Assembly: GCA_003213135.1 (NCBI GenBank)
Contig: QCNT01000005.1
Coordinates: forward strand, 1 to 63,593
Direction of reading: 5' to 3'
DNA length: 63,593 nucleotides
DNA from: Pelagibacteraceae bacterium AG-426-I15
GTDB lineage: Bacteria; Pseudomonadota; Alphaproteobacteria; Pelagibacterales; Pelagibacteraceae
Positions 968-18,090 of the stretch are shown here, piece by piece. The position numbers were made by a program, and so were the translations under genes. The notes beneath the pieces are model-generated. The model was not told the origin of the DNA and made no database searches. It was given only the letters and a program-made list of their open reading frames with translations. The stretch's first letter is position 1, and each line of letters starts with the position of its first letter.

Positions 968-1363
968 ATGCTTTTTAAAAATCGTAAACGCGTAGTTCTT
1001 GACAGAGGTCCAAGCTGGCCTGATTATGATAAGGCAGAACCATTTATGGTTCGATATTATCCTTTATTTCGTAAAAGGCCTAAGTGGTTCCCTTTCAATG
1101 TATTCGTTCATAAGATTTTAAAGAGCGATAGAGGGGATCTGCATGACCATTACTGGCCATATTTAACTATAATTCTTAAGGGTGGTTATTGGGAAACTAG
1201 AGAAAATGGTACTTTTTGGAGAGGTCCTGGCTATATAGGTTTAAGAAAAGGTACCGATAGACACAGTTTAAGGATACCAGAAGGAAAATCAGCATGGACT
1301 CTAATATTTGTTGGTCCAAACAAAGGTTCAAAAAAGTACTCCAGATACCAAAAAAACACTTAA
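968..1363 (+). CDS. Cupin-like (RmlC fold) hypothetical protein
   Basis: 131 residues. The centre carries LHDHYWPY, ILKGGYWE, RGPGYIGLRKGTDRHSL and AWTLIFVGP, a pattern of small cupin-like proteins common in phages and bacterial accessory DNA; the two His of HDH and the later RHSL are possible metal ligands. No signal peptide or membrane segment. The ATG at 968 is chosen because the one at 961 is followed by a stop within six codons. It diverges from the integrase and is isolated from the downstream operon by a long gap, so it may belong to an accessory element. Substrate and function are unknown. Confidence 0.7.
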   Translation: MLFKNRKRVVLDRGPSWPDYDKAEPFMVRYYPLFRKRPKWFPFNVFVHKILKSDRGDLHDHYWPYLTIILKGGYWETRENGTFWRGPGYIGLRKGTDRHSLRIPEGKSAWTLIFVGPNKGSKKYSRYQKNT

Positions 1364-1452
1364 ATTAGTCCCATTTTACCCCTTAAAACCCTTATTTTTC
1401 AACGTTTTTTGCAATCTGAAGATGTATTTATTTAAAAAATAAGGTTTTATGC

Positions 1453-1493
1453 GGTCTATTAGAGCCCGTATGTATAAACGCTTAAAATAGACC
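1453..1493. repeat. Inverted repeat GGTCTATT/AATAGACC
   Basis: Perfect 8-bp arms GGTCTATT (1453-1460) and AATAGACC (1486-1493) with a 25-nt loop, about 90 nt after the cupin-like gene. There is no clear T-run, so it is a weak terminator candidate; it could also be a protein-binding site or a remnant of an integration event. Confidence 0.5.
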
Positions 1494-1652
1494 CATATAT
1501 GGCCCATTAATCGCTATATTCTGATACTGCATTGCTCATAAATTCAGTTAATAAATTATCATTGATTTGTGTCCAAAAGTTTAATTTTGTTATGTTTTAT
1601 TGGCCTTTTAAGAGTAGCAATCTAGACTATTGCTGGATATCCTTAAAAAGAT

Positions 1653-1702
1653 GAATAAAATCAATTTTTTTATCTATTTTATTTAAAACATAGATTTTAT
1701 TC
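1653..1702 (-). terminator. AT-rich hairpin after the ten-gene operon (possible terminator)
   Basis: Perfect 10-bp arms GAATAAAATC (1653-1662) and GATTTTATTC (1693-1702) enclose a 30-nt loop that contains a second, nested imperfect hairpin (ATCTAT.../...ATAGAT). On the minus strand it starts 62 nt after the AEC transporter stop and is followed by ATCTTTTT, so it may end the tRNA-Pro/dmd operon. The stem is AT-only apart from two pairs, hence the modest confidence. Confidence 0.4.
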
Positions 1703-1763
1703 AATAAATTCAATAATATAGATATATTAATTAAAGTAATACATTAAGATATGAAGCAATTAA

Positions 1764-2663
1764 TTAATTGAAAAATTTTAAAGCTAAGTAAACAACGACC
1801 GGGATAGTTATAAAAGACATTAATGTTGATGACACGATTACGCTGGCAATACTGTCAACTGCCCTCTTCTTTGAGTACATCGAACCCACCAAATATGTTA
1901 AAACAGCGCTGGGCATAGCTGACTGAATAAGAAGAACACCAGCCATATAACCACTAAGATTTAAAAATTTAATTAAAGCAAAGCCAATTAAAGGCCCTAA
2001 AACAACCCTAACAGAACCCAAAATAATTGCATGTGTCCATGATACCACCTTAAGTCTTGTTAAAGCTACTCCCAAAGCCATTAAAACTAGAAATATAGTG
2101 GTGTAAGTTAATAAAAAAGTAGTATTTTCCAAATATCCAGGAACATCCAGATCAAAATATAAAAATGCTATTGCCGCTATAATTCCATAAATTGGGCCAT
2201 TCTTAATTAAAATAGATAAAGAAAATTTTTTACTAGCTAAAAAAACACCGATAGTGAAATGAAATAAAATTATAACAGACGCAATAGCAGAGGCCACACC
2301 TAAGCCAGCAGTACCATAAGCGAAAAGACAAATTGGTACACCCATATTTCCAGTATTTGGCAAGAATAAAGGGGGAAGTTCAGTAACAGCATCTTTTTTT
2401 AAAAATAACAAGAAAAAAAAACCAACAAGAGCAAATGCTCCCAAAATAATTACAGCGTAAATAAAGTACTCTGTGAAAATCTCTAAAGTTACGCCAGTAG
2501 TAGTAATGGTATAAAATATCATAGCAGGAGTTCCAATTGTTCCTGCAAAATTTGTTATAAATTTTGTATTAAACTTTGGATCATTCTTTCCAATATAAAA
2601 ACCTATGCCGATAATAAAAAAAACTGGAAAAAGTACGTCTATAAGTTTGAGGTAGAGCTCCAT
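1764..2663 (-). CDS. AEC-family membrane transporter (auxin efflux carrier-like)
   Basis: 299 residues with about ten hydrophobic segments in two groups of five, the length and organisation of the Mem_trans/AEC family. The mid-protein stretch with PLFLPNTGNMGVPICLFAYG is the typical N-T-G-N-x-G-x-P motif of the first repeat. AEC members move organic anions such as malate or malonate; the substrate here cannot be read from sequence. It is the last gene of the DMSP operon and overlaps the SbmA-like gene by one base, so it may carry a carboxylate related to that pathway (inference). Confidence 0.85.
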   Translation of the reverse strand: MELYLKLIDVLFPVFFIIGIGFYIGKNDPKFNTKFITNFAGTIGTPAMIFYTITTTGVTLEIFTEYFIYAVIILGAFALVGFFFLLFLKKDAVTELPPLFLPNTGNMGVPICLFAYGTAGLGVASAIASVIILFHFTIGVFLASKKFSLSILIKNGPIYGIIAAIAFLYFDLDVPGYLENTTFLLTYTTIFLVLMALGVALTRLKVVSWTHAIILGSVRVVLGPLIGFALIKFLNLSGYMAGVLLIQSAMPSAVLTYLVGSMYSKKRAVDSIASVIVSSTLMSFITIPVVVYLALKFFN

Positions 2664-3667
2664 TAAGCTCTTACATCAGATTTTCTAGGTTTTCTCAAGG
2701 GCTTATTAAAATCAATAGCTTTTTCAAATTCATTGAGCCTTTTATAAATCGACCTTAATTCAGTGATCCTGGTCCAGTTTTGTAAAAAAAGTGAAAAGCT
2801 ACTTTGAACTTCCCTGAAAGCGCTAGAGGTTTGTATTAATACACCTAATGTCATTGCTCCCGTAAATAAACCAGGTCCCATTAACAAATAAGGTACAATT
2901 ATCATTGATTGATTATACATTATTAACCACAAATCAAAATATCCATAATGAAGAAATAATCTATGATAATTAAATTTTATACCTGTAAAAAGTTCCAATA
3001 TAGTTGGTGGTTTGACATAATTTTTTCTATCGTCTTCCCCATATACCAATTCTTTTCTAAAAGCGGCTTCAACTTTTTGATTATTATATTCTAAACCCGG
3101 TAGTTTTATTCCAACCAACCAACTTATAATAAGGCCACCTAAACTGGCGGTTAACGAAACCCAAACTAAAGAGCCATTAATATCTTTAAAAAAAGGAATT
3201 ACAACATTTGAAGAAAGGCCCCACAAAATAGGTATAAAAGCAATTAGCAACATTATGGCTCTAACAACCTGTAGCCCTAAACTTTCAACAATTTTTGCAA
3301 AATTCATACAATCCTCTTGAATTCTTTGTGAAGCTCCCTCAACTTTAGCGTCTATTTTTCTCCAATAAGGCATATAAGAGAAAGTCATTGCTTCTCTCCA
3401 TCTAAACGCCCACAATCTTGTGAAATAGTTAGTAACCGTATAAATTATTACGTATGGAATAGCTAATTTCATAAATAATAAGATGCCATCATAAAATTCT
3501 GAAAGTTCACGCTCTGTTGCTTTTTGGAGAAGATCGTAAAAACCTTTATACCATTCATTAATTTTAACATCGATCCAAGTTTGTGAAAGTAAAGATATGA
3601 ATATAAAAAAAGCCCCACCCCAAGACCATAATAACCATTTTTTTTCAGTAAAAAAACTTCTCCACAT
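2663..3667 (-). CDS. SbmA/BacA-family peptide transporter
   Basis: 334 residues; several transmembrane segments and the family signature region FRWREAMTFSYMPYW followed by ASQRIQEDCMNFA, as in SbmA and BacA. The family imports peptides and some modified compounds by proton-driven transport without its own ATPase domain, and no Walker motifs are present, which separates it from ABC exporters with a similar fold. It is somewhat shorter than the usual 380-400 residues. It sits one base after the complex I-like gene and overlaps the AEC transporter by one base. Its link to DMSP metabolism is only positional. Confidence 0.85.
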   Translation of the reverse strand: MWRSFFTEKKWLLWSWGGAFFIFISLLSQTWIDVKINEWYKGFYDLLQKATERELSEFYDGILLFMKLAIPYVIIYTVTNYFTRLWAFRWREAMTFSYMPYWRKIDAKVEGASQRIQEDCMNFAKIVESLGLQVVRAIMLLIAFIPILWGLSSNVVIPFFKDINGSLVWVSLTASLGGLIISWLVGIKLPGLEYNNQKVEAAFRKELVYGEDDRKNYVKPPTILELFTGIKFNYHRLFLHYGYFDLWLIMYNQSMIIVPYLLMGPGLFTGAMTLGVLIQTSSAFREVQSSFSLFLQNWTRITELRSIYKRLNEFEKAIDFNKPLRKPRKSDVRA

Positions 3668-3668
3668 T

Positions 3669-3953
3669 TTAGTCTTTCAAAAAATTATCAGTGTAAGATT
3701 TTATAATAAAATCATTTTTTTTTGGTTCCACAACATCATAAAGAATATTGTTTTTTTTTGCATAATCTATTGCTTTATCCTTAGAAGAAAACTCTAAAAT
3801 GACCTCCTTCATAGTATCATCACCTGACTCCCACCCCATAAATGATGTGAATTTGTTATCTCTTGTTTCAAATTTTAACAACCAATTTTTTATTTTCCCT
3901 TTTCCAGATTGCATGGCTGTTTTTGTAGGAACATAGATTTTAGCTTTTTTCAT
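3669..3953 (-). CDS. NDUFS4-like complex I accessory subunit (ETC complex I subunit family)
   Basis: 94 residues matching the family of the mitochondrial 18-kDa complex I subunit: AKIYVPTKTAMQSGKGK at the start, then W-x-L-x-F and FMGWESGDDTMKEV and a lysine/tyrosine-rich end. Alphaproteobacteria carry this accessory subunit of NADH:ubiquinone oxidoreductase. It lies 4 nt after dmdA and 1 nt before the sbmA-like gene, far from any nuo cluster in view, so co-transcription with the DMSP operon is odd and noted as a finding. Confidence 0.85.
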   Translation of the reverse strand: MKKAKIYVPTKTAMQSGKGKIKNWLLKFETRDNKFTSFMGWESGDDTMKEVILEFSSKDKAIDYAKKNNILYDVVEPKKNDFIIKSYTDNFLKD

Positions 3954-3957
3954 AAAG

Positions 3958-5067
3958 TTATAATATTGGTAGATTACAAATTTTACCTGATACCAATTTC
4001 TTGTTTATGTTAACTTGAAATTTTAATGAATCTTCACAATATTTTGACTTTATCATTGCAATTCCTACAACTTTGTTAAATTTAGGAGAGAAAGCAGCTG
4101 AACGCAGGAAACCTATAACATTATTATTTTGATCTAAAAGTTTTTCTTCTTGAATTAAGTTTATTTCGTTAGAGTCTATTTTTACCCCCATTATTTTTTT
4201 TTCTATACCCTTTTTTTTAATATCTTGAAGAGCTTTTTTTCCTAAATAATTAATTCCGTTATCCAAACATATATACTTGTCAAAACCACATTCGAAAGGG
4301 TTATCATTGTTGTCCATATCATTTCCGTAAGAGAGGAGAGCACCTTCAATTCTTTCAATTGCATTTGGGCATCCTGGTTTAATATTTAGTTCTTTACCTT
4401 TATTCATAAGTTCATCGTATAAGATTAATCCGGATTCTGTATCCTCAATATAAATCTCATAACCTCCTTGTTTAGAAAAACCCGATTTTGATATCATATA
4501 TTTAACACCTCTAAATTCAAAATAATCAAAGTTAAAAAATTTTAAGTTTTTTATATTTTCTCCAAATACTTTTTTCATAACTTCTTCAGATTTTGGACCT
4601 TGAATTGCTAATGTTGCTATATTTGTTTCAAAAACTTTTACATCAAAATTAAAAGAACCTGCTATTCCTTTAGCAAAAAACAATACATCAGAATCAGCAA
4701 TACAAATTCTCCATTTTGTTTTATCAATTTTTAAAATTAAAGGATCGTTTACCATATTTCCTTCTTTGTCAACAAAAGGAACATAATAACATTTATTAAT
4801 TTTTGCTTTTGAAAGATCTCTACATGTCATTAATTGAATCAATTTGTAAGAGTCGTTACCGCTTACTTCGATTTGTCTTTGGACAGTAACATCCCATAAC
4901 TGTACATGGTTTTTTAAGTGTTCGTATTCTTCTTCAACAGATTTAAAGAAAGTCGGCAAAAGCATATGATTATAAACAGTATAACCCCCTACTCCATATT
5001 TTTCTAATCGTGAAGTAAATGGTGTGCTTCTAAGTCTTCTTGTCTTTGAAATTAAAAATTTTTTCAT
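3958..5067 (-). CDS. dmdA: DMSP demethylase (dimethylsulfoniopropionate-dependent THF methyltransferase)
   Basis: 369 residues, GcvT fold (folate-binding aminomethyltransferase domain plus C-terminal barrel). The N-terminus has [28 protein letters not shown]-like [10 protein letters not shown] and LWDVTVQRQ, followed by [36 protein letters not shown] and [19 protein letters not shown] recognise these as the DmdA clade rather than GcvT; the usual GcvT D-D pair reads VNDP here. It transfers a methyl group from DMSP to tetrahydrofolate, giving 3-methylmercaptopropionate. The dmdB and dmdC homologues in the same operon support the call. It overlaps the hydrolase gene by one base. Confidence 0.93.
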
Positions 5068-5840
5068 TATTTTAAAAATTTAGCTACTTGTTCTCTCATT
5101 TCAAATGCATTTTCCAGTATTATCATATGACCACAATCTTTGATGATATGCATTTTTGACCCATTAATTAAGCCTGAAAATTCTTTGCCTTTATCTAACC
5201 TAATCATCTTGTCTAGCTCTCCAAATATAAAAAAGGTTGGGCATTTGATCATTTTTACACAATTGATTCCGTTCTTGTAATTATTGCAAGCTATTAAGTC
5301 TACCGCTAAAACCTCACGCACCTCCCTGGATGAATTCAGGATTTTTTGAAGCGGGTTTCCGCCAATAAATTGCTTAGAATAACCATAACCCCATTTCATC
5401 ATTAAATTTAAAGACTCCAGATCTCCGGAATTAGCTAAATCTATTAAACTTTTATTTACAGGTATTACATATGAACCAGCTACAAAAATTAAATTTTTAA
5501 TATTATCTGGAAATTTATTTACATATTCTAAAGCAACTAAACAACCTTGAGAATGCCCCAATATTGTTAAATCTTTTATTCCAATAACCTGAACAACTTT
5601 ATTAAGCCAATCAGCCATATCCTCTATTGATTTAAGCGAAGCACCCTCAGAATTACCATGGCCTGGTAAGTCAAGTGCAAAAACATTGTATCCTTCATCA
5701 GCAAGATATTGATCGGTTAAAGACCAAACAACATGTGATTGACCGCTACCATGAAGTAATATGATTGTGTGCTTGTTCTTATCAAAAGTTTGGCCAATAT
5801 CGGAGGAAAAAACTTTTTTATTTTCTACGTCAAAAATCAT
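5067..5840 (-). CDS. Alpha/beta hydrolase
   Basis: 257 residues. The catalytic triad is visible: nucleophile S97 in GHSQG, D210 in FGELD and H238 in DCGHM. An oxyanion-hole motif LLHGSGQS is near residue 29. No signal peptide, so it is cytosolic. Overlaps the crotonase gene by 4 bp and dmdA by 1 bp, so it is translationally coupled to the DMSP operon. A thioesterase or CoA-ester hydrolase role (for example release of acids from the MMPA-CoA branch) is plausible but inferred; esterase or dienelactone-type activity cannot be excluded. Confidence 0.85.
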
Positions 5841-6646
5841 TTATCTTGCCAATTGGGATTTCTTTTATTTATAAAGGCATCTATTCCCTCTTCGGCATCA
5901 ATTTTAAGCATGTTCTCAACCATAACATTAGATGCATAATCATACGCATCGGACAAATTCATATTTATTTGGTTATAAAAAGCTTGTTTGCCAATTTTTA
6001 ATGTCATAGATGATTTCTTTGAAATTTTTAATGCTTTTTCTAACACGATACTTTTAAGATCTTTGTCGTCGACTACTTCATTAATTAAACCAATTTCAGC
6101 TGCTTTTTTTGAAGAAATTAAATCTCCATTTAAAAGCATTTCCATAGAATGTTTGTTTGATACTGTTCTTGATAAAGCAACCATTGGTGTTGAACAAAAT
6201 AAACCAATATTTACTCCTGGTGTTGCAAATCTAGAAGATGTTCCGCCGTAGGCTAAATCACAACTTGCAACTAATTGACAACCAGCAGCAGTTGCGGTCC
6301 CAGAAACCTCTGCAATAATAGGCTTTGGGTTACTAATAATTGATTGCATAAGTTTTGAACATTGTGACATTACTTTCTTAAAGTAGTTCCTGCCCTTATC
6401 AGAATTAAGACGACCTTTTTTTAGTTGTTTTAAATCATGACCTGCACAAAATGTTTTTCCCTCTGAGGAAATAATAATCACTCTTATAGATTTATCATTA
6501 ACACATTTATCTAAAACTGACTGGATACTAGACATCATTTCCTCAGATAAAACGTTATGATGTGATGGGTTGCTTAAAGAAAGACGAAGAATACATTCTG
6601 AATGGACTGAAGTTTTGACCAATTGTTTATTGTTATCATTATTCAT
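5837..6646 (-). CDS. Crotonase-fold protein lacking both hydratase glutamates (ECHDC3-like)
   Basis: 269 residues. The fold is clear: oxyanion-hole motif FCAGHDLKQL, then GTATAAGCQLVASCDLA and FATPGVNIGLFCSTP. In true enoyl-CoA hydratases the two catalytic glutamates fall at positions that read Q124 (GCQ) and G144 (TPG) here; the 20-residue spacing is kept. The sequence pattern is that of ECHDC3-type crotonases. So it is unlikely to be a classical hydratase or DmdD, although it is in the right operon. It may hydrolyse, bind or edit a CoA ester. Gap to the OsmC gene is 2 nt. Confidence 0.85.
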   Translation of the reverse strand: MNNDNNKQLVKTSVHSECILRLSLSNPSHHNVLSEEMMSSIQSVLDKCVNDKSIRVIIISSEGKTFCAGHDLKQLKKGRLNSDKGRNYFKKVMSQCSKLMQSIISNPKPIIAEVSGTATAAGCQLVASCDLAYGGTSSRFATPGVNIGLFCSTPMVALSRTVSNKHSMEMLLNGDLISSKKAAEIGLINEVVDDKDLKSIVLEKALKISKKSSMTLKIGKQAFYNQINMNLSDAYDYASNVMVENMLKIDAEEGIDAFINKRNPNWQDK

Positions 6647-6648
6647 GA

Positions 6649-7098
6649 TTAATTAATTTTAACTTTTACCTCATTAGAAAGTGAGTTTGATATAAAACAA
6701 TATCGATGTGCTCTATCTTGAACCTCTCTCATTTTTGAAACATCAACAGAAAAACCATTTGAAAAATCAACTTTAGGATTTAGTTCAATTTTTGTAACAG
6801 ACATTAAGCCTTTGATATTTTTACCAAGCGTTGCTATTGCTGTGTCTTTATATGTTTTAACAGGCCATTTCATTTTTGCTGCAAGAGCTAAGAAAGTCAT
6901 CATATGGCAACTGCTTAAAGATGCCGCAAGAGTTTGTTCGGGATTAGTATTTAATTCATTTCCTCTCCAATCAGGTGCGGAATCTGCAACGATTTTTGTA
7001 TTAGGTGTAAATGTTATTTCATGCTTGTTTGAATACTTCCCTGGAGACATATCACCACCTTCTAGTTTCCAAATAAGATCAATCGATATTTTAGACAT
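6649..7098 (-). CDS. OsmC-family peroxiredoxin-like protein
   Basis: 149 residues. The two family cysteines are present: C64 in SSCHMM and C134 in HRYCFISNS, with the N-terminal substrate arginine region DWRGNE. OsmC/Ohr proteins reduce organic hydroperoxides; this one has the short OsmC-like form with HxxCxxSNS at the end. It sits 7 nt after dmdB. In a pathway that can release methanethiol it may protect against thiol-derived peroxides (inference). Confidence 0.88.
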   Translation of the reverse strand: MSKISIDLIWKLEGGDMSPGKYSNKHEITFTPNTKIVADSAPDWRGNELNTNPEQTLAASLSSCHMMTFLALAAKMKWPVKTYKDTAIATLGKNIKGLMSVTKIELNPKVDFSNGFSVDVSKMREVQDRAHRYCFISNSLSNEVKVKIN

Positions 7099-7105
7099 TT
7101 CAAAA

Positions 7106-8734
7106 TTAATTTATTTCTTTAGCTTTTTTTCTCAGCTCAAATTTTTGAATTTTACCTGTTGATGTTTTTGGTAATTCACAAAATTCGACTTTTTTTGGCA
7201 CTTTAAATCCCGCAAGCGTTTCTTTACAAAAAGAAATGAGCTCTTTTTCAGTAACTTTTTTATCTTTGACAGTCTCTATGAATGCACAAGGTACTTCGCC
7301 CCATTTTTCATCTGGTTTAGCAACTACCGCTGCTATAGATACTGATGGATGTTTGGCTAATGTATTTTCAATTTCTATTGATGATATATTTTCTCCCCCA
7401 GAAATAATTATATCTTTTGATCTATCTTGAATTTTTACATAACCATCTTCGTGCATTACTGCTAGATCGCCAGAATGAAACCAGCCCCCCTTCATTGCTT
7501 TATCGGTCGATTCTTTATCTTTAAAATAACCTTTCATTACAACATTTGCTCTAATCATTATCTCTCCAATAGTTTTTCCATCTCTTGGAACTTCTTTCAT
7601 AGTTTTGGGATCCATAATTGTTACACCTTCAGTGTTTGGGTATCTTACTCCTTGGCGTGCTTTTATCTCATTTTTTTTCTCTTCATCATAATTGTTCCAA
7701 GTATCATTCCAAGCACACTGCGTTACATGCCCGTACGTCTCTGTTAATCCATAAACATGCATTACATCAAAACCAAGACTTTCCATTTTTTTAAAAATAA
7801 TACTTGGTGGAGGGGCACCTGCTGTTAAGACAGATACTTTATGTTTAAGTTTTTTTCTCTCGCTTTCTGAAGCGCCGGTAATCATATTTAATACTATTGG
7901 TGCGCCGCCGAAATGAGTAATATTATATTTATCTATTAGTTCAAAAATTTTTTTTATATCAATATTCCTTAAACAGATTGTTCGACCATTTAACATTGGT
8001 ACAGTCCATGGATAACCCCAGCCATTACAATGAAACATGGGAACAACAGTTAAAAAATTTAATCTATTTGGCATATTCCAAGCCGCAGCACTACCGGTTG
8101 ACATTAAATATGATCCTCTATGATGATAAACAACACCCTTAGGATTTCCTGTTGTCCCGGAAGTATAACTCAATGATATAGCTTGCCACTCATCATCGGG
8201 CATATTCCAATCATAATTATCATCACCAGTTTTTAAAAACTTTTCATATTCTAAATCACCAATTTTTTCTAATTTTGATTGATCAACGTATTTGTCAGCA
8301 ATATCAATTATAGTGATTTTATTTTTAATTGATGCTAATGCCTTTTTAACTTCTTTGTGAAGCTGCCTATCAACAACCAAAACTTTTGCATCACTATGAT
8401 CTAAAATGTATGCAATTGTCTTTGCGTCCAATCTAATGTTGATTGTATTTAGAACGGCGCCCGTCATAGGTACTGAATAATGAGCCTCGAATATTTCAGG
8501 TGTATTAAAAGCCAAAAAAGAAACAGTATCACCCTTTTTAATACCAATTTTTTCTAAAGCGCTAGCAAACTTTACACACCTATTGTAAACTTGACTCCAG
8601 GTGTATTTGCGGTCCTCATAAATTAACGCTTCGTAAGTTGGATATATATCCTTTGCTCTTTGTAAAAAAGACAAAGGGGTAAGAGGCACAAAATTTGCGT
8701 TATTTTTATTTAAATTTGTGTCGTAATGATTCAT
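7106..8734 (-). CDS. dmdB: 3-methylmercaptopropionyl-CoA ligase (DmdB-like acyl-CoA synthetase)
   Basis: 542 residues, ANL superfamily. The phosphate loop SYTSGTTGNPKGV, the YGLTET motif, the hinge GGWFHSGDLAVMHEDGY and the C-terminal catalytic lysine in KTSTGKIQKFELR are all present. The N-terminus (NANFVPLTPLSFLQRA) resembles characterised DmdB enzymes. It would activate methylmercaptopropionate with ATP and CoA. Taken alone it could be a medium-chain acyl-CoA ligase; the company of dmdA and a dmdC-type dehydrogenase makes DmdB the best reading. It lies 2 nt after dmdC. Confidence 0.85.
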   Translation of the reverse strand: MNHYDTNLNKNNANFVPLTPLSFLQRAKDIYPTYEALIYEDRKYTWSQVYNRCVKFASALEKIGIKKGDTVSFLAFNTPEIFEAHYSVPMTGAVLNTINIRLDAKTIAYILDHSDAKVLVVDRQLHKEVKKALASIKNKITIIDIADKYVDQSKLEKIGDLEYEKFLKTGDDNYDWNMPDDEWQAISLSYTSGTTGNPKGVVYHHRGSYLMSTGSAAAWNMPNRLNFLTVVPMFHCNGWGYPWTVPMLNGRTICLRNIDIKKIFELIDKYNITHFGGAPIVLNMITGASESERKKLKHKVSVLTAGAPPPSIIFKKMESLGFDVMHVYGLTETYGHVTQCAWNDTWNNYDEEKKNEIKARQGVRYPNTEGVTIMDPKTMKEVPRDGKTIGEIMIRANVVMKGYFKDKESTDKAMKGGWFHSGDLAVMHEDGYVKIQDRSKDIIISGGENISSIEIENTLAKHPSVSIAAVVAKPDEKWGEVPCAFIETVKDKKVTEKELISFCKETLAGFKVPKKVEFCELPKTSTGKIQKFELRKKAKEIN

Positions 8735-8736
8735 TA

Positions 8737-10497
8737 TTAATTAAAGTTTGATTTCATCATAGTTTCACTACCTGTTACAGCAGATAAATAATGACTTTGT
8801 ACTCTTGGTAAAATTTTATCAAAATAATATGTTGCAGTGTTAATTTTATCTTCATAAAAAGATTTATTTTCTTTTATTTTATCATGACTAACCTTTAAAA
8901 TTTTTAACCATGAGTGTGCAAGACCAATATATCCAAACACTTTTAAATAATCGTTACAAGCCGCACTTACATCATCTTTAGATGTTTTGTTTTTTTCACC
9001 AAGCCAAAGTGTAAAATTATTCAATAATTCTAAATATTTTAAAAATTTTTGAACAAACAATGATAAATTTTTATCTTTTTCAAGTGCCTTGGCTTCATTA
9101 GTAAGCTGACTAATATACCTATCAAAAATTTTATTATTAAGAATTTTTCTGTAAACAAGATCTATAGCTTGAACAGAGTTTGTGCCTTCATATATTGGGG
9201 TTATCCTATTGTCTCTAAATAACTGTTCAATACCTTGATCTTTTGTATAACCATAACCACCAAAAACTTGAATTGCGTCATTTGTTATTTCCATTCCAAT
9301 ATCTGTAAAAAAAGATTTTATAAGTGGCGTCATCATAGAAACCATATCATTAGCATTTTTTTTAATTGTTGAATCTGAATGATTTAAACTAACATCTATT
9401 TGTTGGGATACCCAAAAAGCTAAAGATCTTTGTCCTTCAATTAATGATTTCATGTTCATTAAACTTCTTCTGATGTCTGCGTGCTTTATTATTAAATCTG
9501 CATCTTTATTATTACTGTTGTTTGCCTTGCCCTGCTTTCTCTCTTTCGCGTATGAAAGTGCATTTTGGTATGCTGTTTCTGCGATACCTAAACCTTGAAT
9601 ACCCACAACAATTCTTTCTAAGTTCATCATAGTGAACATTGAACTCAAACCTTTATTTTCTGGTCCTATCATATAACCAGTTGCATCTTCAAAGTTCAGA
9701 ACACAAGTTGGAGATCCTTTAATTCCCATTTTTGTTTCTATCGATCCTGTGTTAACTCCATTTCTTGGACCAATTGATCCATCGTCTTTAACAATAAATT
9801 TGGGAACAAGAAATAAACTAATACCCTTTGTTCCAGATGGAGATCCAGGAACTCTTGCTAACACTAAATGTATTATATTTTCTGTTAAATCATGGTCACC
9901 CGAGGTTATAAAAATTTTTTGTCCTGTTATCTTGAATGAATTATCTTTTTGCTTAACAGCTTTTGTTTTTAAGAGTCCTAAATCTGTTCCACAGTGAGAC
10001 TCGGTTAAACACATAGTTCCACTCCATTTGCCCTCGACAATTTTTGGTAGATATTTATTTTTAATTTTTTCATCAGCATGATGTAAAATACAGTTATATG
10101 CTCCAATACTTAATTCACTATAAAGCTTGAAGGAAAGACTCGATGATGAAAGCATCTCTTCAAAGAATGTACTCACAGTCTTTGGCATACCTTGACCGCC
10201 GTATTTTGGATCGCAAGACAATGATGTCCACCCGTCTTCAATAAATTTCTTATAAGCTTCTTTATAGCCTGGTGGAGATCGAACTATTCCATTTTCGTAA
10301 ACACAGGGTTTTTCATCTCCTATCTTAGCTAGAGGTAAAATTAGTTCCTGATTAATTTTAGCAGCTTGTTGTAAAACATCTTTAACTAAATCAGAATTTA
10401 TTTCTTTATATTTATCTATTTCTTTATAGTTTTTATTATCTTTTAAGTGATCAAATAAGAACATCATTTCTTCTACTGGTGCATTATATATAGGCAT
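8737..10497 (-). CDS. dmdC: 3-methylmercaptopropionyl-CoA dehydrogenase (DmdC-like)
   Basis: 586 residues, the long acyl-CoA dehydrogenase form typical of DmdC, not the usual 380-400. Visible are an N-terminal extension, the FAD/acyl motif CLTESHCGTDLGLLKT, GQKIFITSGDHD, the FGGYGYTKDQ motif and the PIYEGTNSVQA motif with the likely catalytic glutamate near residue 434, plus a C-terminal helical extension. It would form methylthioacryloyl-CoA. Its ATG directly follows the fadB-like stop codon. Known family members outside dmd operons act on other acyl-CoAs, so specificity rests partly on context. Confidence 0.87.
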   Translation of the reverse strand: MPIYNAPVEEMMFLFDHLKDNKNYKEIDKYKEINSDLVKDVLQQAAKINQELILPLAKIGDEKPCVYENGIVRSPPGYKEAYKKFIEDGWTSLSCDPKYGGQGMPKTVSTFFEEMLSSSSLSFKLYSELSIGAYNCILHHADEKIKNKYLPKIVEGKWSGTMCLTESHCGTDLGLLKTKAVKQKDNSFKITGQKIFITSGDHDLTENIIHLVLARVPGSPSGTKGISLFLVPKFIVKDDGSIGPRNGVNTGSIETKMGIKGSPTCVLNFEDATGYMIGPENKGLSSMFTMMNLERIVVGIQGLGIAETAYQNALSYAKERKQGKANNSNNKDADLIIKHADIRRSLMNMKSLIEGQRSLAFWVSQQIDVSLNHSDSTIKKNANDMVSMMTPLIKSFFTDIGMEITNDAIQVFGGYGYTKDQGIEQLFRDNRITPIYEGTNSVQAIDLVYRKILNNKIFDRYISQLTNEAKALEKDKNLSLFVQKFLKYLELLNNFTLWLGEKNKTSKDDVSAACNDYLKVFGYIGLAHSWLKILKVSHDKIKENKSFYEDKINTATYYFDKILPRVQSHYLSAVTGSETMMKSNFN

Positions 10498-12720
10498 TTA
10501 GTTTATAAGTGGTTTTCCTGTTTTTAAAGTATGAGCTATTCTACTCTGAGTACTTTTAGTGTCTAATAATTTCATAAAACTATTTAATTCTAGATTATAC
10601 ATTTGATCCTCGGAAATTTCTTTATTTTTTTCAGTATCTCCACCACTCAATACATATGCTAATTCTTTACCAACTACCATACCATGGTCTAAAATCTTTT
10701 TATTATTATATAATTCATCAAGTTTCTTTTGCATTTTTTGTCTCACTTGGTTCCCTGATAATTTAAATTTACATTTCATAGGGGGGGTAAAATCTTTATT
10801 TTTTTCGATAAATTTTCTAGCTACTCCAAAAAGGTTGTTTCGGTTAATAATAACTTCGTTGTTTTTGTCTAAAAATAAAAGAGGTTTTGCTTCTTGAGGT
10901 GAAGAAGCTGTTTTTGCATAACCAATAATGTCAAATACCTTGAGCGATGCGAAATCTGGATCATTTTTTGACTCATTAGTTTGTGTCCAGCGCCACAAAA
11001 GCTCTTTACAACCACCTCCCGCTGGAACCAAACCAACAATAGTTTCAACTAGACCCATAACTATATTAGTATGAGATACCACATAATTGCTTTGCAATAA
11101 TACCTCTTCGCCGCCGCCAAGAGCTAGACCAGATGGTGCAGAAATAACTGGATTTTCGCAATATTTTAAATGTTTACATGTTTTTTGAAAATACTTTATG
11201 AATTTTTCAACAGATTTCATATCTCCTTTTTTAACAAATTCCATCACATAATTAAGATTAACACCTGCTGAAAATTGCATACTTTCATTTATTATAATCA
11301 AAGGTTTGTCGGTAGCATTCATTAATGCATCCATAGAATTATAGTCTAAAGCATTAGCTTTGGTATTAAACTCAACAATATTAAAGTCATTGAATCGAAA
11401 AATTTCTGCAGATTCATTTTTATCTATTTTTGTAACAGATTTTTTTATTTTTCCTAATGTTACAATGTTAGTATATTTTTGGCGTTCATCATAAAAATTT
11501 TTAAGTTTTTTATTTTTTAGATTTTGAAGGAAAGGATTTAATTTAGTATTACCTATTTTGGTAAAAAAATTATCCAAACCAATCGATTCTAACATTTCAA
11601 AAGGCCCCATAGACCAATTGAAACCAAGTCTAAGTGCTTCGTCTATATCATTATACTCTTTTGTTATCTGGGGTACCAAAGATGATGAATATAAAATTAT
11701 TTTTGATATTACTGACCATGCATATTTTCCATACTTATCATTTCTATTAATTAATTTTAAAAGATTTACTTTTTCGATATTTAGCTCAATTTTTTTTGAT
11801 GGAGAGTACGAGTTTTTATCTATATCAAGAGCTTCGAGGATCTTATTGTTGTTTTCTTTATTTATTCTATAAAAACCACCCTTGCCTTTTCGTCCAGTAT
11901 ATCCTTTGTCAATTAATGTTTTTATAATAGGTATTCCATCTACTACATTTTGAAAATCATCTTTTGGATCCAATTCTTTTTTAAAACTTTTAAGAACGTC
12001 TGACATTAAATCAATACCAATTAAATCGTATAAAGCAAAAACTCCTGTTTTTGGAATTCCCATTGGCCTTCCAAACACAGCATCTGCTTCTTCTATAGAA
12101 AGTTTCATTGAAATTGCTTCGGTCATCGCAATTTGCATTGAATAAACTCCAATTCTATTTCCTAAAAAACCAGGTGTATCGCCACATACAATTACACCTT
12201 TTCCTAAATTCTTTTCACAAAAATTTTTTAATAATTCTATTTTATTTTTATCATTGTTTTCTTCTCTGACGATTTCAAGAAGTCCCATATATCTAACTGG
12301 ATTAAAAAAATGTGTTATACAAAAATCTTTTTTATCATTTTCATTTAATTTTTGAGATAATATTTTAAGAGGAATTGTAGATGTATTAGATGATACTACA
12401 GAGTTTTTCTTTCTTTTATCAAATATTTTTTTATATATATCATGCTTTATATCAATTCTTTCTACAACTGCTTCTATAATCCAATCTGCATCAGAAACTT
12501 GATCAAAATTTTTATTAATAGTTCCTGTCTTTAATCCATCAATTTTAGATTTTTCAAATAAAAGTGGAGGTTTTGATTTTAATATTCTTTCTCGAGCTTT
12601 TTCAACAATTTCATCTTTTAGATCTAATAATACTACTGGAATATTAGCATTACATAGATGGGCTGCTATTCCGCTTCCCATAGTTCCCGATCCAATAATG
12701 ACTACTTTGTTTATTTTCAT
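10498..12720 (-). CDS. FadB-like 3-hydroxyacyl-CoA dehydrogenase fused to a C-terminal crotonase domain
   Basis: 740 residues from the ATG at 12718-12720. Order: NAD-binding dehydrogenase domain ([15 protein letters not shown] near the start, HFFNPV near 137), two C-terminal dehydrogenase domains (to about 400), then a crotonase domain (about 445-740), reversed relative to E. coli FadB. The crotonase keeps both catalytic glutamates, E539 (GGGEEV) and E559 (LVETIVG). It is therefore the best candidate in the operon for hydrating methylthioacryloyl-CoA or other enoyl-CoAs. A longer frame starting with TTG at 12768 lies inside tRNA-Pro and is rejected. The start is only 4 nt after the encoded CCA of tRNA-Pro, so there is no room for a separate ribosome-binding site. 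Confidence 0.88.
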
Positions 12721-12724
12721 AAAA

Positions 12725-12801
<77 letters not shown>

Positions 12802-14066: not shown

Positions 14067-14410
14067 TTAACAAAAAAATATTAAAACTTGCGTATGATTT
14101 GTCAAATTATGGAATAAAAAAAAAATCAAAATACACTTCAAATTTAAAAAATAAAAAATGTGGCGATAAAATAAAAGTAGAGCTTCAAATTAAAAACAAA
14201 AAGATAATTAATATGTGCTATGAAACTGAGTCTTGCATTCTTTGTCAGGCGTCGGCCAGTTTGTTATCTAAAAGGGTAAAGAATACGCCAATCAAAGATT
14301 TAGATAAAATTTTAAAATCTAGGAGTTTTGAAAATTTAATGTCTAAAAAATATTTACCTAGAAGAGATTGTATAATGCTGCCATATAACGCCTTAAAAAA
14401 AGCTTTATAA
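14051..14410 (+). CDS. SufU/IscU-like iron-sulfur scaffold protein
   Basis: 119 residues. The three conserved cysteines of the family are in place: NKKCGDKI (Cys of the CGD motif), SCILCQASASLLS and RRDCIMLPY near the end, the last with the R-x-x-C pattern. These proteins hold a nascent Fe-S cluster or act as zinc-containing sulfur acceptors. The first 30 residues are very lysine-rich. It overlaps nhaA by 16 bp and is not beside suf or isc genes here. Scaffold versus sulfur-transfer role cannot be decided. Confidence 0.8.
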   Translation: MFKKIINKKILKLAYDLSNYGIKKKSKYTSNLKNKKCGDKIKVELQIKNKKIINMCYETESCILCQASASLLSKRVKNTPIKDLDKILKSRSFENLMSKKYLPRRDCIMLPYNALKKAL

Positions 14411-14411
14411 T

Positions 14412-15176
14412 TTATAAATCTAATCTCATTCCATCATGGGCAGGAATTATATTTTTTGGTAGTGATTTTTTTAAATAATCGTAATCAAGATCAGAATGAA
14501 GATTTGTTAGAATTGTTTTATGAGGATTAAATTTTCTGCTTATTTTAATTGCCTGAGATAAGTTAAAATGAGACGGGTGCTCATTAAATTTAAGAGAATC
14601 TAAAATTAAATATTTTAAGTTTTTAAGCTTGCTATAATCTTTATAATATATTTCATTTACATCGCTAATATATGCAATTTTATCAATTACATATGCTGTT
14701 GATTTAATTTTTCCGTGCCTTACATAAAAAGATTTAACTGTTATTTTGTCACTTTTTTTATATAAATAAAATTTATCTTTTACTAGATTGCCATTTAAAA
14801 TTGGCACATACCCTTGTCCACCATAAAAACAGTAATCATATTTTTTTTTTAAATTTTTAAGAGTTTCTTTATTTGCAAAAATATCGATTTTTTTTTTATT
14901 TTTCCAAAAAAAAGGTCTTAATTCAAAAATACCACTGGTCTGATCAGCATGCTCGTGTGTATACAAAACATAATCGATATTATGAATTTTGTTATCTATA
15001 AACTGTTTTCTAATATCAGGAGATGTATCGATTAATACAGATAAATCTCCTTTTTTTAAAATAGCCGAGCATCTTGTTCGTGAATTGAAATTATTTTTTT
15101 TATCGCAATTACCCCAGTTTCCAGAAATCCAGGGAACACCTACGGAGCTTCCGCAACCTAAAATAATAAACTTCAT
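14412..15176 (-). CDS. MBL-fold metallohydrolase (PhnP/RNase Z-like group)
   Basis: 254 residues. Starts with FLGCGSSVGVP-type ILGCGSSVGVP and RTRCSAILK, then the metal motif THEHADQTSGI, a later histidine in FYVRHG, an aspartate in YISDVNE and HPSHFNLSQA, and ends PAHDGM. This set belongs to the PhnP-like phosphodiesterase branch that in many alphaproteobacteria follows tatD. It overlaps tatD by 4 bp. The substrate is unknown; a cyclic phosphodiester is the family precedent. Confidence 0.85.
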   Translation of the reverse strand: MKFIILGCGSSVGVPWISGNWGNCDKKNNFNSRTRCSAILKKGDLSVLIDTSPDIRKQFIDNKIHNIDYVLYTHEHADQTSGIFELRPFFWKNKKKIDIFANKETLKNLKKKYDYCFYGGQGYVPILNGNLVKDKFYLYKKSDKITVKSFYVRHGKIKSTAYVIDKIAYISDVNEIYYKDYSKLKNLKYLILDSLKFNEHPSHFNLSQAIKISRKFNPHKTILTNLHSDLDYDYLKKSLPKNIIPAHDGMRLDL

Positions 15177-15955
15177 AGTTTGTTATTCATATCAAATAAT
15201 TTAAAAAAATTACTGGTTGTTATGGAAGAAATATTACTTTCTGTATCATTCTTGATTTTAGCAATGTGTTTTAATGTATGAATTATATGCGATGGTTCGT
15301 TAATTTTGCCTCTTAAAGGTTCTGGAGAAAGATATGGGGAGTCTGTTTCTAACAAAATTTTATCATTCGGTATTGACTTAAATACATCGCTAAGTTCATT
15401 TGACTTTTTAAAGGTTACAATGCCACTAGCTGAAAAATAACAGCCTAAATCTAATAGCTTGTGAGCAAATTCTTTGCTTCCAGTAAAACAATGCATTAAA
15501 ACTTTAAAATTCTTATTCTTAATTTCACTTTTTAAAATTTCAAATGTGTCCTTCTCAGCAGATCTTGTGTGAACGATTAGAGTTGAAGATAATTGTTGTG
15601 CAGCATTTATATGTTTTATAAAACAATCTTTTTGTGAATCAACATCGGAATTTTCATAAAAAAAATCAAGCCCGGTCTCCCCTATTCCAATAATTTTTGG
15701 ATTTTTGAAATTCGTTATTATTTTATTTGTCGAAAGGTTTTTGTATAACTTTGACTCGTGAGGATGTATACCGTAAGTTCCATAAACATTTTTATATTTT
15801 TTAATTATATCTAAAATTTTTTTATAACTTTCGTCCTTAGTGCAAATAGTTAAAAAATATTTTACACCAACATTATTAGCTCTTTCCAAAACATTATCTA
15901 AATTTTGTATCAAAGGTTCATAATCGAGATGACAATGTGAGTCTATTAATATCAA
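15173..15955 (-). CDS. tatD: TatD-family metal-dependent hydrolase/DNase
   Basis: 260 residues. Motifs: DSHCHLDYE (metal ligands), YGIHPHES, GIGETGLDFFY, HTRSAEKDTFEIL, MHCFTGS and LLETDSPYLSPEPLRGK. TatD proteins are 3'-5' exonucleases, though some act on other substrates. The best start is a TTG at 15953-15955, two nt after the glycosyltransferase stop, giving MILIDSHCH; there is no upstream ATG. Neighbour of the MBL hydrolase as in other alphaproteobacteria, but metG/holB/tmk, often upstream, are not present here. Confidence 0.92.
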   Translation of the reverse strand: MILIDSHCHLDYEPLIQNLDNVLERANNVGVKYFLTICTKDESYKKILDIIKKYKNVYGTYGIHPHESKLYKNLSTNKIITNFKNPKIIGIGETGLDFFYENSDVDSQKDCFIKHINAAQQLSSTLIVHTRSAEKDTFEILKSEIKNKNFKVLMHCFTGSKEFAHKLLDLGCYFSASGIVTFKKSNELSDVFKSIPNDKILLETDSPYLSPEPLRGKINEPSHIIHTLKHIAKIKNDTESNISSITTSNFFKLFDMNNKL

Positions 15956-15957
15956 TA

Positions 15958-18090
15958 TTATTTATCCCAAAAGAAATCAGAATTTTTCTTATCTGATTTA
16001 AAAGTTTTATTAATTATATATTTAGCAACCTGAGTAGAATTAAAATGCTTTAAATATTTCATTTTTCCTTTTCTGCCAATAAGTTTCCTTAATTTTTCAT
16101 CTTTACTAATTTTGATTATTTTTTCAGCTAAATCACTGACGTTTTTATAAAAAACCATTTCACTATCATTAAAAAAATCTCTATAAAAAGTTTTCTCATC
16201 AATTAATGTAACAAGGCCATTTCCTATAATTTGTGTAATTCTATCACTACTGTAATATTTAATCGGCTCACCTCTACTAAGATTTAAACCCATTTTTGAA
16301 TTAGATATAGCTTTTAAATAATTGTCTGCCCATACGGGTTGAACGTTGTTAGCACCATAAATATCAAATTTAATATTTGGTGTTATATCCATTAATTTTG
16401 ACACAAAGTTTATTCTTTCATCAAATTTACCTCTTTTTAGTACACCACGATGGACGCCGTGGCTTAATGCGTAAAAAACATCCATGTTACATGATTTGTC
16501 AAAATTATTTAAGGTTTCAAAAGAACTGTCTGATGGGTTTGGAATAAAATGAAAATTTTCCTTATTCTTAATAAAGTGTAAAACTTTTGGTGATGTAGTA
16601 AGAAAATTTTTATCAACATAATCAACTTTGTTAAGAATTCTCTGTTTGTTTTTAACAAAATCAGGCCCTTTTTTATTTAAAGGATCTAAAAACCACTGGG
16701 CTATTTTTAAATTTGGATAATTTTTTTTTAAATCTCTTAATGTCTGTGGAAAAATAGAATCCGCATGACCTAATACCAGCATATCAGGTCTAAAATTATA
16801 ACATGTGTTAATTAACTTATTGTTAAGTTTTTTGGTACCAGATAAATCTCTGTAGTTTTTATAATATTTTTGAATGTCTCTGTCACTAAATTCTAAAACG
16901 CTATGTCCCAAACGAATGAGACCATTATTAATCCTTCGACCAGTATTAAAGTAAAGTCTACCGTCGTGTCTTTCGTTAAAATTAGTAATATGAACTATTC
17001 TTAATTTATCTGCTTTTTTAGGGGTGTTAAATTTATTAGCTGAAAATAATATCTCTTGTCTGTACTTATCTATTAGTTTGCTGCTGTATTTGTGCGTTAA
17101 ATAAAAGTTTTTATAAGCTAATTTTTGATATTCAGATCTCATCACCTTATTTTTTATAAGTTGTTCTATTTTTTTATGTAACTCTTTAGGATTTAATTTT
17201 TTTAATATTATGGCGTTTGTTACTGTCTCGGGAAGGCCTCCTTTATTACTAATAATAACTGCACATGCATTTGCTGAACCCTCAAGACTTGTTCTTCCAA
17301 AAGGCTCGTTCCATCTAGAACAGGCCACAGCAATACTTGTTTTTTTAAAAATATTTAAAACTTTATTATGTTCAAGAAAACCTAAATTTTTTAATCTTTC
17401 ATGATTAAAAGTTATTCTATCTCTTTGTTCATCACCAATAACGATTGCTTGCCAATCTTTATGCTTTTTAAGAATTTTTAATACAGCTGTGCCAAATATA
17501 TCATAACCTTTTGATTTGTTTAATTTACCAACAAAAGTAATCCATTTTTTTTTATTTTTTAGATTTATTTTATTTTTTGATGCTGACTGAAATATAACTA
17601 TTAATTTTTCACTATTTACAGATCCGGCACTTATATTTTCTAAAAACCTTTTTTTTGACCATAGGCTATTAAAAATTATTTTTTCACAAATATCGACTAG
17701 ATATTTACGCTCACTCAAATTTTTTGAACCCGTCATTGTTAGTGGATCGTTGTGAAAATACAAAACAAATTTAGATTTAACGCCTTCGTTAATTAGATAT
17801 TTTAAATAATGGGGTCTATTATGTATTTCAATAATATTGGAAGGATTAGACTTCTCATGTTTGATGAATTCATCCATGTAATTTTCGCTTTGGCTTCCAA
17901 AAAATATTTTTTTTAATTTTATATTTTTATAATTTCTTGAAAATTTTTTTTTATACGAAGTGTTTCCAAAGACTTTTATATTTTTTTTGTATTGACTAAG
18001 CTTTAAAGTGTCGTTGACGAATAACGATACTGCCCCGGGATAATTGGGAGAAAAATTCTCTTTATAGGGTAATAAAATTGAGATTTTCAT
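15958..18090 (-). CDS. Two-domain glycosyltransferase (GT4 plus CgeB-like domain)
   Basis: 710 residues. The first half (about 1-350) is a GT4-like enzyme: ILLPYKENFSPNYPGAV start, ITFVGKLNKSKGYD, and the nucleotide-sugar motif WNEPFGRTSLEGSANACAV followed by SNKGGLPETV. The second half (about 365-700) resembles CgeB/DUF3880-type glycosyltransferases: IVHITNFNERHDGRLYF start, APQWFLDP-like IAQWFLDPLNK, and NLSRGEPIKYYSSDRITQIIGNG. No membrane segment. Probably builds surface polysaccharide; the sugars are unknown. It overlaps the GIY-YIG gene by 4 bp. Confidence 0.85.
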   Translation of the reverse strand: MKISILLPYKENFSPNYPGAVSLFVNDTLKLSQYKKNIKVFGNTSYKKKFSRNYKNIKLKKIFFGSQSENYMDEFIKHEKSNPSNIIEIHNRPHYLKYLINEGVKSKFVLYFHNDPLTMTGSKNLSERKYLVDICEKIIFNSLWSKKRFLENISAGSVNSEKLIVIFQSASKNKINLKNKKKWITFVGKLNKSKGYDIFGTAVLKILKKHKDWQAIVIGDEQRDRITFNHERLKNLGFLEHNKVLNIFKKTSIAVACSRWNEPFGRTSLEGSANACAVIISNKGGLPETVTNAIILKKLNPKELHKKIEQLIKNKVMRSEYQKLAYKNFYLTHKYSSKLIDKYRQEILFSANKFNTPKKADKLRIVHITNFNERHDGRLYFNTGRRINNGLIRLGHSVLEFSDRDIQKYYKNYRDLSGTKKLNNKLINTCYNFRPDMLVLGHADSIFPQTLRDLKKNYPNLKIAQWFLDPLNKKGPDFVKNKQRILNKVDYVDKNFLTTSPKVLHFIKNKENFHFIPNPSDSSFETLNNFDKSCNMDVFYALSHGVHRGVLKRGKFDERINFVSKLMDITPNIKFDIYGANNVQPVWADNYLKAISNSKMGLNLSRGEPIKYYSSDRITQIIGNGLVTLIDEKTFYRDFFNDSEMVFYKNVSDLAEKIIKISKDEKLRKLIGRKGKMKYLKHFNSTQVAKYIINKTFKSDKKNSDFFWDK

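Follow-up and report, generated by a model that had tools for sequence, protein, structure and literature searches.

Genes of the locus

The window, by which we mean the whole stretch of 63,593 nucleotides from Pelagibacteraceae bacterium AG-426-I15 (contig QCNT01000005.1), carries seven adjoining genes in the order fadB-dmdC-dmdB-osmC-crotonase-hydrolase-dmdA (Table 1). A sequence-only reading of this DNA had given these genes, their order and their coordinates, and all were borne out by open reading frame (ORF) calls on the minus strand and by a Pfam search, which backed the family name of each of the seven ORFs. We are almost certain that the locus is the dimethylsulfoniopropionate (DMSP) demethylation operon of a SAR11 lineage, to which fadB has been added as the first gene and an osmC-crotonase pair in the middle. 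The locus is ordinary in its core, and the extension of the known operon is real, conserved and lineage specific.

The intergenic gaps from fadB to dmdA are 0, 2, 7, 2, -4 and -1 nt. The compactness noted earlier (gaps of -4 to +7 nt) therefore stands, but the run does not end at dmdA: an NDUS4-like, an SbmA/BacA-like and a Mem_trans gene follow equally close, with gaps of +4, +1 and -1 nt. Tight spacing is not distinctive either, since 43 of 51 same-strand neighbours in the whole window are at most 10 nt apart (longest-start ORFs of at least 90 amino acids, counting overlaps) and closely spaced runs of 9 and 10 genes occur elsewhere in it. Short gaps, being ordinary in the window, do not by themselves exceed chance; the same gene order in a second genus does.

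Table 1. Genes and features of the dmd locus and its flanks in the window
Feature	Position	Strand	Basis
FadB/FadN-like fusion, 3-hydroxyacyl-CoA dehydrogenase domain then enoyl-CoA hydratase domain	10498-12720	-	PF02737, PF00725, PF00378
Acyl-CoA dehydrogenase, DmdC orthologue of SAR11 dmd locus	8737-10497	-	Pfam, orthology, motif
Acyl-CoA ligase, SAR11-type DmdB	7106-8734	-	NF006020/PRK08162, orthology
OsmC-family protein	6649-7098	-	PF02566, 64 bits, over cut-off
ECHDC3-like crotonase without the two catalytic glutamates	5837-6646	-	NF006008/PRK08139
Alpha/beta hydrolase (mhpC of P. ubique map)	5067-5840	-	PF00561
DmdA, DMSP demethylase, SAR11 type	3958-5067	-	NF009133, 3tfh match
NDUS4-like gene, continues the run past dmdA	3669-3953	-	PF04800, 101 bits
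SbmA/BacA-like transporter gene, same run	2663-3667	-	PF05992; NF009036, 512 bits (cut-off 385)
Mem_trans (auxin-efflux family) transporter gene, last of run	1764-2663	-	PF03547, 46.9 bits, over cut-off
tRNA-Pro (TGG)	12725-12801	-	CCA end 4 nt (TTTT) ahead of fadB ATG

Core pathway genes

The DmdA protein passes the curated model NF009133 (524.8 bits; cut-off, 410) and matches 3tfh, which we take to be the structure of P. ubique DmdA, with 538.5 bits over residues 1 to 368. By these scores, it is a genuine SAR11-type DMSP demethylase. The DmdA of genome G046, which has a P. ubique-type locus, is identical to 3tfh in 368/368 residues, and the window proteins share 69% (dmdC), 76% (dmdB), 64% (hydrolase) and 61% (DmdA) identity with those of the G046 dmd locus. 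A pattern search restricted to close relatives confirmed 76 DmdA proteins, all from Pelagibacteraceae, Pelagibacterales or Candidatus Pelagibacter.

The ligase scores 855 bits with NF006020/PRK08162 (cut-off, 677). With the DmdB model NF005426 it reaches 349 of the 822 bits required; by curated model, it is not a Roseobacter-type DmdB. Its identity is 82 to 91% in most Pelagibacter-type loci but 72% in those members of its own genus that have the gene order called layout B below. From sequence, we assign it as the SAR11-type DmdB, the orthologue of the ligase of the dmdA locus. The P. ubique ligase is reported to act on methylmercaptopropionate (MMPA) (Bullock et al. 2014).

The dehydrogenase has its best structure matches in 8png (554.0 bits) and 6ijc (502.6 bits). 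The latter is presumably the structure of DmdC, and the motif YEGTN, which we take to be the site of the DmdC catalytic glutamate, is present in 79/79 aligned rows (76 distinct). Ligase, dehydrogenase and hydrolase are assigned as orthologues of SAR11 dmd-locus genes. The names DmdB-like and DmdC-like given earlier hold as to orthology with the dmd locus, not as to the Roseobacter-type DmdB model. The refutation named earlier, clustering of the two proteins with fatty-acid enzymes together with a lack of action on MMPA or MMPA-CoA, would not be decisive, because DmdB and DmdC as known so far already belong to the fatty-acid type and have broad substrate ranges (PMC5395565).

Gene order across the order Pelagibacterales

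The window genome (G000; 0.98 Mb in 19 contigs, 88% complete) belongs to genus g1; g9 is a second genus of the same family, g6 the main Pelagibacter-type genus and f2 another family of the order. Gene order was surveyed in 78 loci whose sequence reaches 6.2 kb or more upstream of dmdA; 23 loci with less were omitted, and at least 2 genomes are counted twice. With acad, acs and abH denoting dehydrogenase, ligase and hydrolase, 41 loci read acad-acs-abH-dmdA, 17 read acad-acs-dmdA, 10 have the full window layout, and 6 have layout B, fadB-acad-acs-abH-(308-aa gene)-dmdA. The run is broken in the remaining four: in L022 and L051 acad and acs lie slightly further upstream, L073 retains only a piece of the hydrolase gene, and L163 has none of fadB, acad, acs and abH beside dmdA. 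Ligase and dehydrogenase genes adjoin dmdA in 74/78 loci, and in 57/78 the hydrolase gene belongs to the same unbroken run as dmdC, dmdB and dmdA.

In g9, loci L123 to L125 show the whole order of the window; in L122, whose contig starts at the ligase gene, it is kept from there on. The seven proteins of g1 and g9 are 58 to 88% identical. fadB and osmC-crotonase are additions common to both genera and stand in the same order: fadB heads the operon in both, and the osmC-crotonase pair is present in g9 and in part of g1. The flanking nhaA-like, NDUS4, SbmA and Mem_trans genes are syntenic in g1 and g9 as well.

FadB as candidate hydratase

DmdD orthologues are absent from P. ubique, for which alternates have been hypothesised (PMC5069961). 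The FadB protein of the window aligns over its full length (1-740) with NF052272 but misses the cut-off (506 bits; cut-off, 999). Its hydratase residues Glu539 and Glu559 are invariant (30/30 rows, 22 distinct) and align with those of human AUH (1hzd). In the dehydrogenase domain Ser111, His137, Glu149 and Asn188, presumably its catalytic residues, are invariant in the same rows. Proteins matching PF00378 (E ≤ 0.001) were counted in eight genomes. Five (G046, G050, G052, G053 and G094) hold just FadB and a crotonase free of both glutamates, and three (G000, G042 and G043) hold three crotonase-type proteins each, the extra one lacking both glutamates in G000, the second in G042 and the first in G043. 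The extra protein of the window genome (G000:C1:296907-297629, L138) is MenB-like by eye. Because FadB is the only crotonase-type protein with both glutamates in the eight genomes, we propose it, on evidence that we see as evenly balanced, as the stand-in for the missing DmdD, that is, as the predicted hydratase of methylthioacryloyl-CoA (MTA-CoA).

The distribution of fadB is consistent with this role. Among 98 genomes of the order, 57 have both fadB (E ≤ 1e-60) and a SAR11-type DmdA (one over the curated cut-off), 5 have DmdA only, 2 have fadB only and 34 have neither (phi 0.85; here and below, phi is not corrected for descent). For fadB and potD, its neighbour in Pelagibacter, phi is 0.43, and for potD and DmdA it is 0.38 (54 both, 8 DmdA only, 19 potD only, 17 neither). 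Within family f1 alone, phi with DmdA is 0.77 for fadB, 0.90 for the hydrolase, 0.72 for the crotonase and 0.69 for potD. Of 9 genomes drawn from g9, the single one with DmdA is also the single one with fadB, crotonase and hydrolase. The observation that no DmdA genome lacks both fadB and the crotonase is true of 62/62 genomes, but 0.56 is expected by chance, and we did not use it as evidence.

Several findings weigh against a dedicated role of FadB. Within f1, the phi of 0.77 for DmdA and fadB compares with 0.73 for potD and fadB. G051 (99% complete) has dmdA, dmdB and dmdC (L172) and no fadB at the above threshold, and in f2 DmdA-like proteins below the cut-off occur in 15/18 genomes with no fadB, the hydrolase being absent too. 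In seven Pelagibacter-type loci (L157 to L162 and L164) fadB is not part of the dmd locus but follows genes that look by eye like those of an ABC transporter, and its neighbour in G050 is a thiolase gene; this setting suggests a general short-chain role. The Pelagibacter-type orthologue is 67 to 72% identical to the window protein in full-length matches. In G114 (95% complete), dmdA (L163, 5517-6623) stands in the same setting, followed by the NDUS4-SbmA-transporter tail, but none of dmdC, dmdB, hydrolase and fadB adjoins it; fadB and hydrolase are absent from the whole genome, dmdB and dmdC having been sought only beside dmdA.

The fadB neighbours in Pelagibacter-type genomes include genes presumably for a spermidine/putrescine-like ABC transporter, and in L158 an agmatinase gene lies two genes past fadB. 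The assignment of fadB to polyamine metabolism is weakened by the presence of potD in 17/18 f2 genomes without fadB and its absence from G000 and G094, which have fadB. The binding protein of the transporter has no NCBIfam match, and the word fadB does not occur in the main text of a paper on SAR11 polyamine use (PMC8437039). In G048 about 11 kb separate fadB (14151-16373) from a second DmdA-like gene (L157, 2203-3348), whose product is 44% identical to the DmdA of the window; match tables show fadB close to a second DmdA in several further genomes too.

A wider alternative is that the locus is a short- or medium-chain beta-oxidation operon to which dmdA has been appended, MMPA being one of several substrates. 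PRK08162 is a general acyl-CoA synthetase model, the dehydrogenase scores higher to 8png than to 6ijc, FadB retains the dehydrogenase residues checked, and the thiolase gene in G050 and the breadth of the known DmdB and DmdC (PMC5395565) fit as well. However, the operon has no thiolase gene, the sole thiolase match of the window genome lying on another contig; fadB tracks SAR11-type DmdA across the 98 genomes; and ligase and dehydrogenase genes keep to dmdA in 74/78 loci and lie close upstream of it in L022 and L051. We regard this alternative as rather unlikely.

The ECHDC3-like crotonase

The crotonase passes NF006008/PRK08139 (371 bits; cut-off, 313) and matches human ECHDC3 (2vx2) with 219 bits; in the structural alignment, made with a model of mean pLDDT 80.9, the two are 44% identical. 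Q124 and G144 replace the hydratase glutamates in 39/39 rows (24 distinct). Because both catalytic glutamates are missing, the protein is probably not the MTA-CoA hydratase; DmdD itself keeps the pair of glutamates found in classical hydratases (PMC5395565). For the DmdD step, FadB is the better candidate.

The gene nevertheless recurs beside genes of methyl-sulfur and C1 metabolism. In g1, 21/28 genomes have exactly one copy (E ≤ 1e-30) and none has two. Eight copies lie in the dmd operon (G000, G002, G006, G008, G012, G017, G024 and G188; the G017 contig stops short of dmdA), 12 are immediate neighbours of mtnA, and one (G005) is unplaced. The four dmd-slot genomes examined (G000, G006, G012 and G188) have mtnP-mtnA without the crotonase. 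In L132, MtnA passes TIGR00512 and the methylthioadenosine phosphorylase passes TIGR01694. In L008 the dmd slot is taken by a crotonase of the mtn type (8446-9231; support 1.0; 54% identical to the window protein), and G012 is alike. In L126 and L127 the crotonase gene is near a DmdA-related aminomethyltransferase gene (L126: NF009133, 229 bits, below the cut-off). One crotonase function can fairly be taken to serve both methylthio routes, and the operon links an orphan crotonase family to methyl-sulfur metabolism. The gene after mtnA varies within the genus, a 214-aa protein being encoded there in L168 to L171 (L169 is G000:C2; compare L132, L133 and L136).

It could be, then, that this glutamate-free crotonase converts MTA-CoA or the next intermediate in a noncanonical way and that FadB is kept for other substrates. 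The recurrence just described, the single copy per g1 genome and the mtn-type occupant of the L008 slot speak for it, as does the presence of the gene in 69/78 genomes with any DmdA-like match (E ≤ 1e-90) and in the fadB-less G051. On the other side, both glutamates are missing in 24/24 distinct sequences while DmdD keeps them (PMC5395565), layout-B operons have no crotonase, and 7/62 genomes with SAR11-type DmdA lack it (E ≤ 1e-30), all seven having fadB. Across the 98 genomes, 55 have both crotonase and SAR11-type DmdA, 7 DmdA only, 18 crotonase only and 18 neither (phi 0.43). We consider such a noncanonical role unlikely.

That fadB, osmC and the crotonase gene are mere passengers, held in place by the gene order of a compact genome and with no part in DMSP catabolism, is less probable still: short gaps are ordinary (43/51 pairs) and the nhaA-like, NDUS4, SbmA and Mem_trans flanks also syntenic in g1 and g9, but from lineage to lineage whole functional genes come and go around a constant dmdA, and the crotonase sits in the dmd or the mtn slot, never in both, among the genomes seen.

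Alpha/beta hydrolase and OsmC protein

Ser97, Asp210 and His238 of the hydrolase are invariant (82/82 rows, 66 distinct). By profile, its nearest solved relative is 5frd (AF-Est2). Its structure model (mean pLDDT, 87.3) matches esterases, C-C hydrolases and depolymerases about equally; the fold therefore does not name the substrate. The hydrolase and SAR11-type DmdA occur together in 59 of the 98 genomes, DmdA alone in 3, the hydrolase alone in 0 and neither in 36 (phi 0.94). Two points count against a CoA-releasing role tied to DMSP. Eighteen of the 59 matches are relatives of 45 to 47% identity and not the dmd-locus gene, and without them the counts are 41/21/0/36 and phi is 0.65. AF-Est2 binds CoA and has no thioesterase activity (PMC4861933), so that the hydrolase as candidate for the CoA-releasing step is a guess from context, which we put forward only tentatively.

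The hydrolase is not a new element. It had been listed as an addition to known dmd loci, described as mainly dmdA-dmdB-dmdC with or without dmdD; in SAR11, 57/78 loci carry the gene, and a P. ubique map gives 'mhpC, hydrolase' with dmdA, fadD and mmgC (Sun et al. 2011, PMC3160333). It is a regular component of SAR11 dmd loci.

The OsmC protein misses the subfamily cut-offs of TIGR03561 (37.2 bits; cut-off, 88.85), TIGR03562 (34.6; 85.8) and TIGR03563 (35.5; 166.15). Since both cysteines are kept (Cys64 and Cys134; 24/24 rows, 13 distinct), a role in peroxide or thiol metabolism is possible. In P. ubique osmC (SAR11_1172) lies beside ordL and bhmT (SAR11_1171 and SAR11_1173), dmdA being SAR11_0246 (PMC5069961, PMC3160333), and is under a SAM-V riboswitch (PMC5069961). 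Similar control of the window operon was considered and rejected, an Rfam scan of the window at gathering thresholds returning only three tRNAs and no riboswitch.

Proposed pathway

From these sequence assignments, the following reactions are predicted. DmdA would turn DMSP into MMPA, the ligase would convert MMPA to MMPA-CoA, and the dehydrogenase would form MTA-CoA. The hydratase domain of FadB would then hydrate MTA-CoA, the product decaying to methanethiol and 3-oxopropionyl-CoA, from which the alpha/beta hydrolase or, less likely, the crotonase would remove CoA to give malonate semialdehyde. The latter might decarboxylate to acetaldehyde or yield acetyl-CoA by way of an MmsA-type dehydrogenase; in G046, a gene over the cut-off for CoA-acylating methylmalonate-semialdehyde dehydrogenase is the sixth after dmdA. 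OsmC may clear peroxides arising from methanethiol oxidation.

In a variant that we hold to be very improbable, both FadB domains act: the hydratase gives 3-hydroxy-3-(methylthio)propionyl-CoA, the dehydrogenase oxidises this hemithioacetal to an S-methyl thioester before it decays, and the hydrolase splits the thioester into methanethiol and malonyl-CoA. If true, the demethylation pathway would have a new final stage in which NADH and a fatty-acid precursor are gained directly without acetaldehyde, and it would explain the presence of a hydratase-dehydrogenase fusion and an esterase-type hydrolase in a dmdA operon.

SAR11 bacteria, which are abundant in seawater, obtain reduced sulfur from DMSP and similar compounds; their dmd genes may show little response to DMSP (PMC10746254). 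The methanethiol-releasing enzyme of P. ubique is only hypothesised, DmdD being absent (PMC5069961). The operon and the genome censuses narrow the candidates to FadB and, less likely, the ECHDC3-like crotonase, plus the conserved hydrolase.

Comparison with known systems

The P. ubique dmd locus (mmgC/dmdC, fadD/dmdB, mhpC, dmdA) has the same order of these four genes as the window. The P. ubique-type locus of G046 differs in lacking fadB, osmC and the crotonase gene and in its flanks; fadB and the crotonase gene lie elsewhere in that genome. A crotonase-type gene within a dmd cluster is already known from SAR92, whose cluster reads dmdA-acuH-dmdB-dmdC (PMC10746254). SAR92, however, belongs to the Gammaproteobacteria, its gene order is different, its AcuH is a described DmdD orthologue whereas the window crotonase lacks the two glutamates, and fadB and osmC are unmentioned in the accessible text of that paper. 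With the Roseobacter pathway (DmdA-DmdB-DmdC-DmdD/AcuH) the first three reactions are expected to be alike, but the ligase fails the DmdB model (349/822 bits) and none of the three PF00378 matches in the 88%-complete window genome is a stand-alone crotonase that has both glutamates. The window fusion shares the order of dehydrogenase and hydratase domains with the FadB/FadN type (NF052272), but its score is low (506 bits; cut-off, 999) and its operon has no thiolase gene. The crotonase, at 44% identity to ECHDC3 (2vx2) and over the PRK08139 cut-off, is bacterial and stands in a dmd operon.

The sequence-only reading had called the order fadB-dmdC-dmdB-osmC-crotonase-hydrolase-dmdA undescribed, and the accessible parts of the open-access literature searched agree, yielding no description of this order or of fadB, osmC or an ECHDC3-like crotonase in a dmd operon. 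A SAR86 paper (PMC11582366) names fadB and dmdA in separate passages.

Mosaic history and flanking features

In a tree of 78 ligase sequences, those g1 members that have layout B fall together with G046 and L032 (support 1.0), and the window-type members of g1 stand with g9 inside a large Pelagibacter-type group. The dehydrogenase, FadB and DmdA trees place layout-B with window-type members of g1. From this conflict between trees, we infer that single operon genes have been exchanged between lineages. As seen at L009 to L014 and L072, two DmdB lineages are swapped between genera and the neighbouring genes are not. The 308-aa gene of layout B, between hydrolase and dmdA (L010, 9070-9996), is sugar-oxidoreductase-like by eye.

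The tRNA-Pro gene lies just upstream of fadB in 11/12 further fadB-headed loci from two genera. The exception is L006, where the fadB ORF has only 616 aa (1169-3019) and the 5' region is disturbed by a rearrangement or an assembly fault. Since the fadB ATG follows 4 nt past the CCA end of the tRNA, a transcript processed at the tRNA 3' end could leave a nearly leaderless fadB mRNA. Promoter and terminator scans of the window were near shuffle level (64 against 69.1, and 8 against 5.0 with a standard deviation of 2.4).

An integrase-family gene at 2-883 of the window runs off the contig start, and homologues lie near the operon in g1 and g9 loci; its phage-integrase family was established via the homologue in L008. 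Integrase and tRNA-Pro bracket the region, but a genomic island at the tRNA is not supported, as a scan of 10 sequences gave no duplicate of the tRNA 3' end, the scan being uninformative for L124 and L125, whose own tRNA was unmatched even at one mismatch. On the other side of the operon, the NDUS4-like gene follows dmdA in the g1 and g9 loci displayed, the short stretch of L087 showing none.

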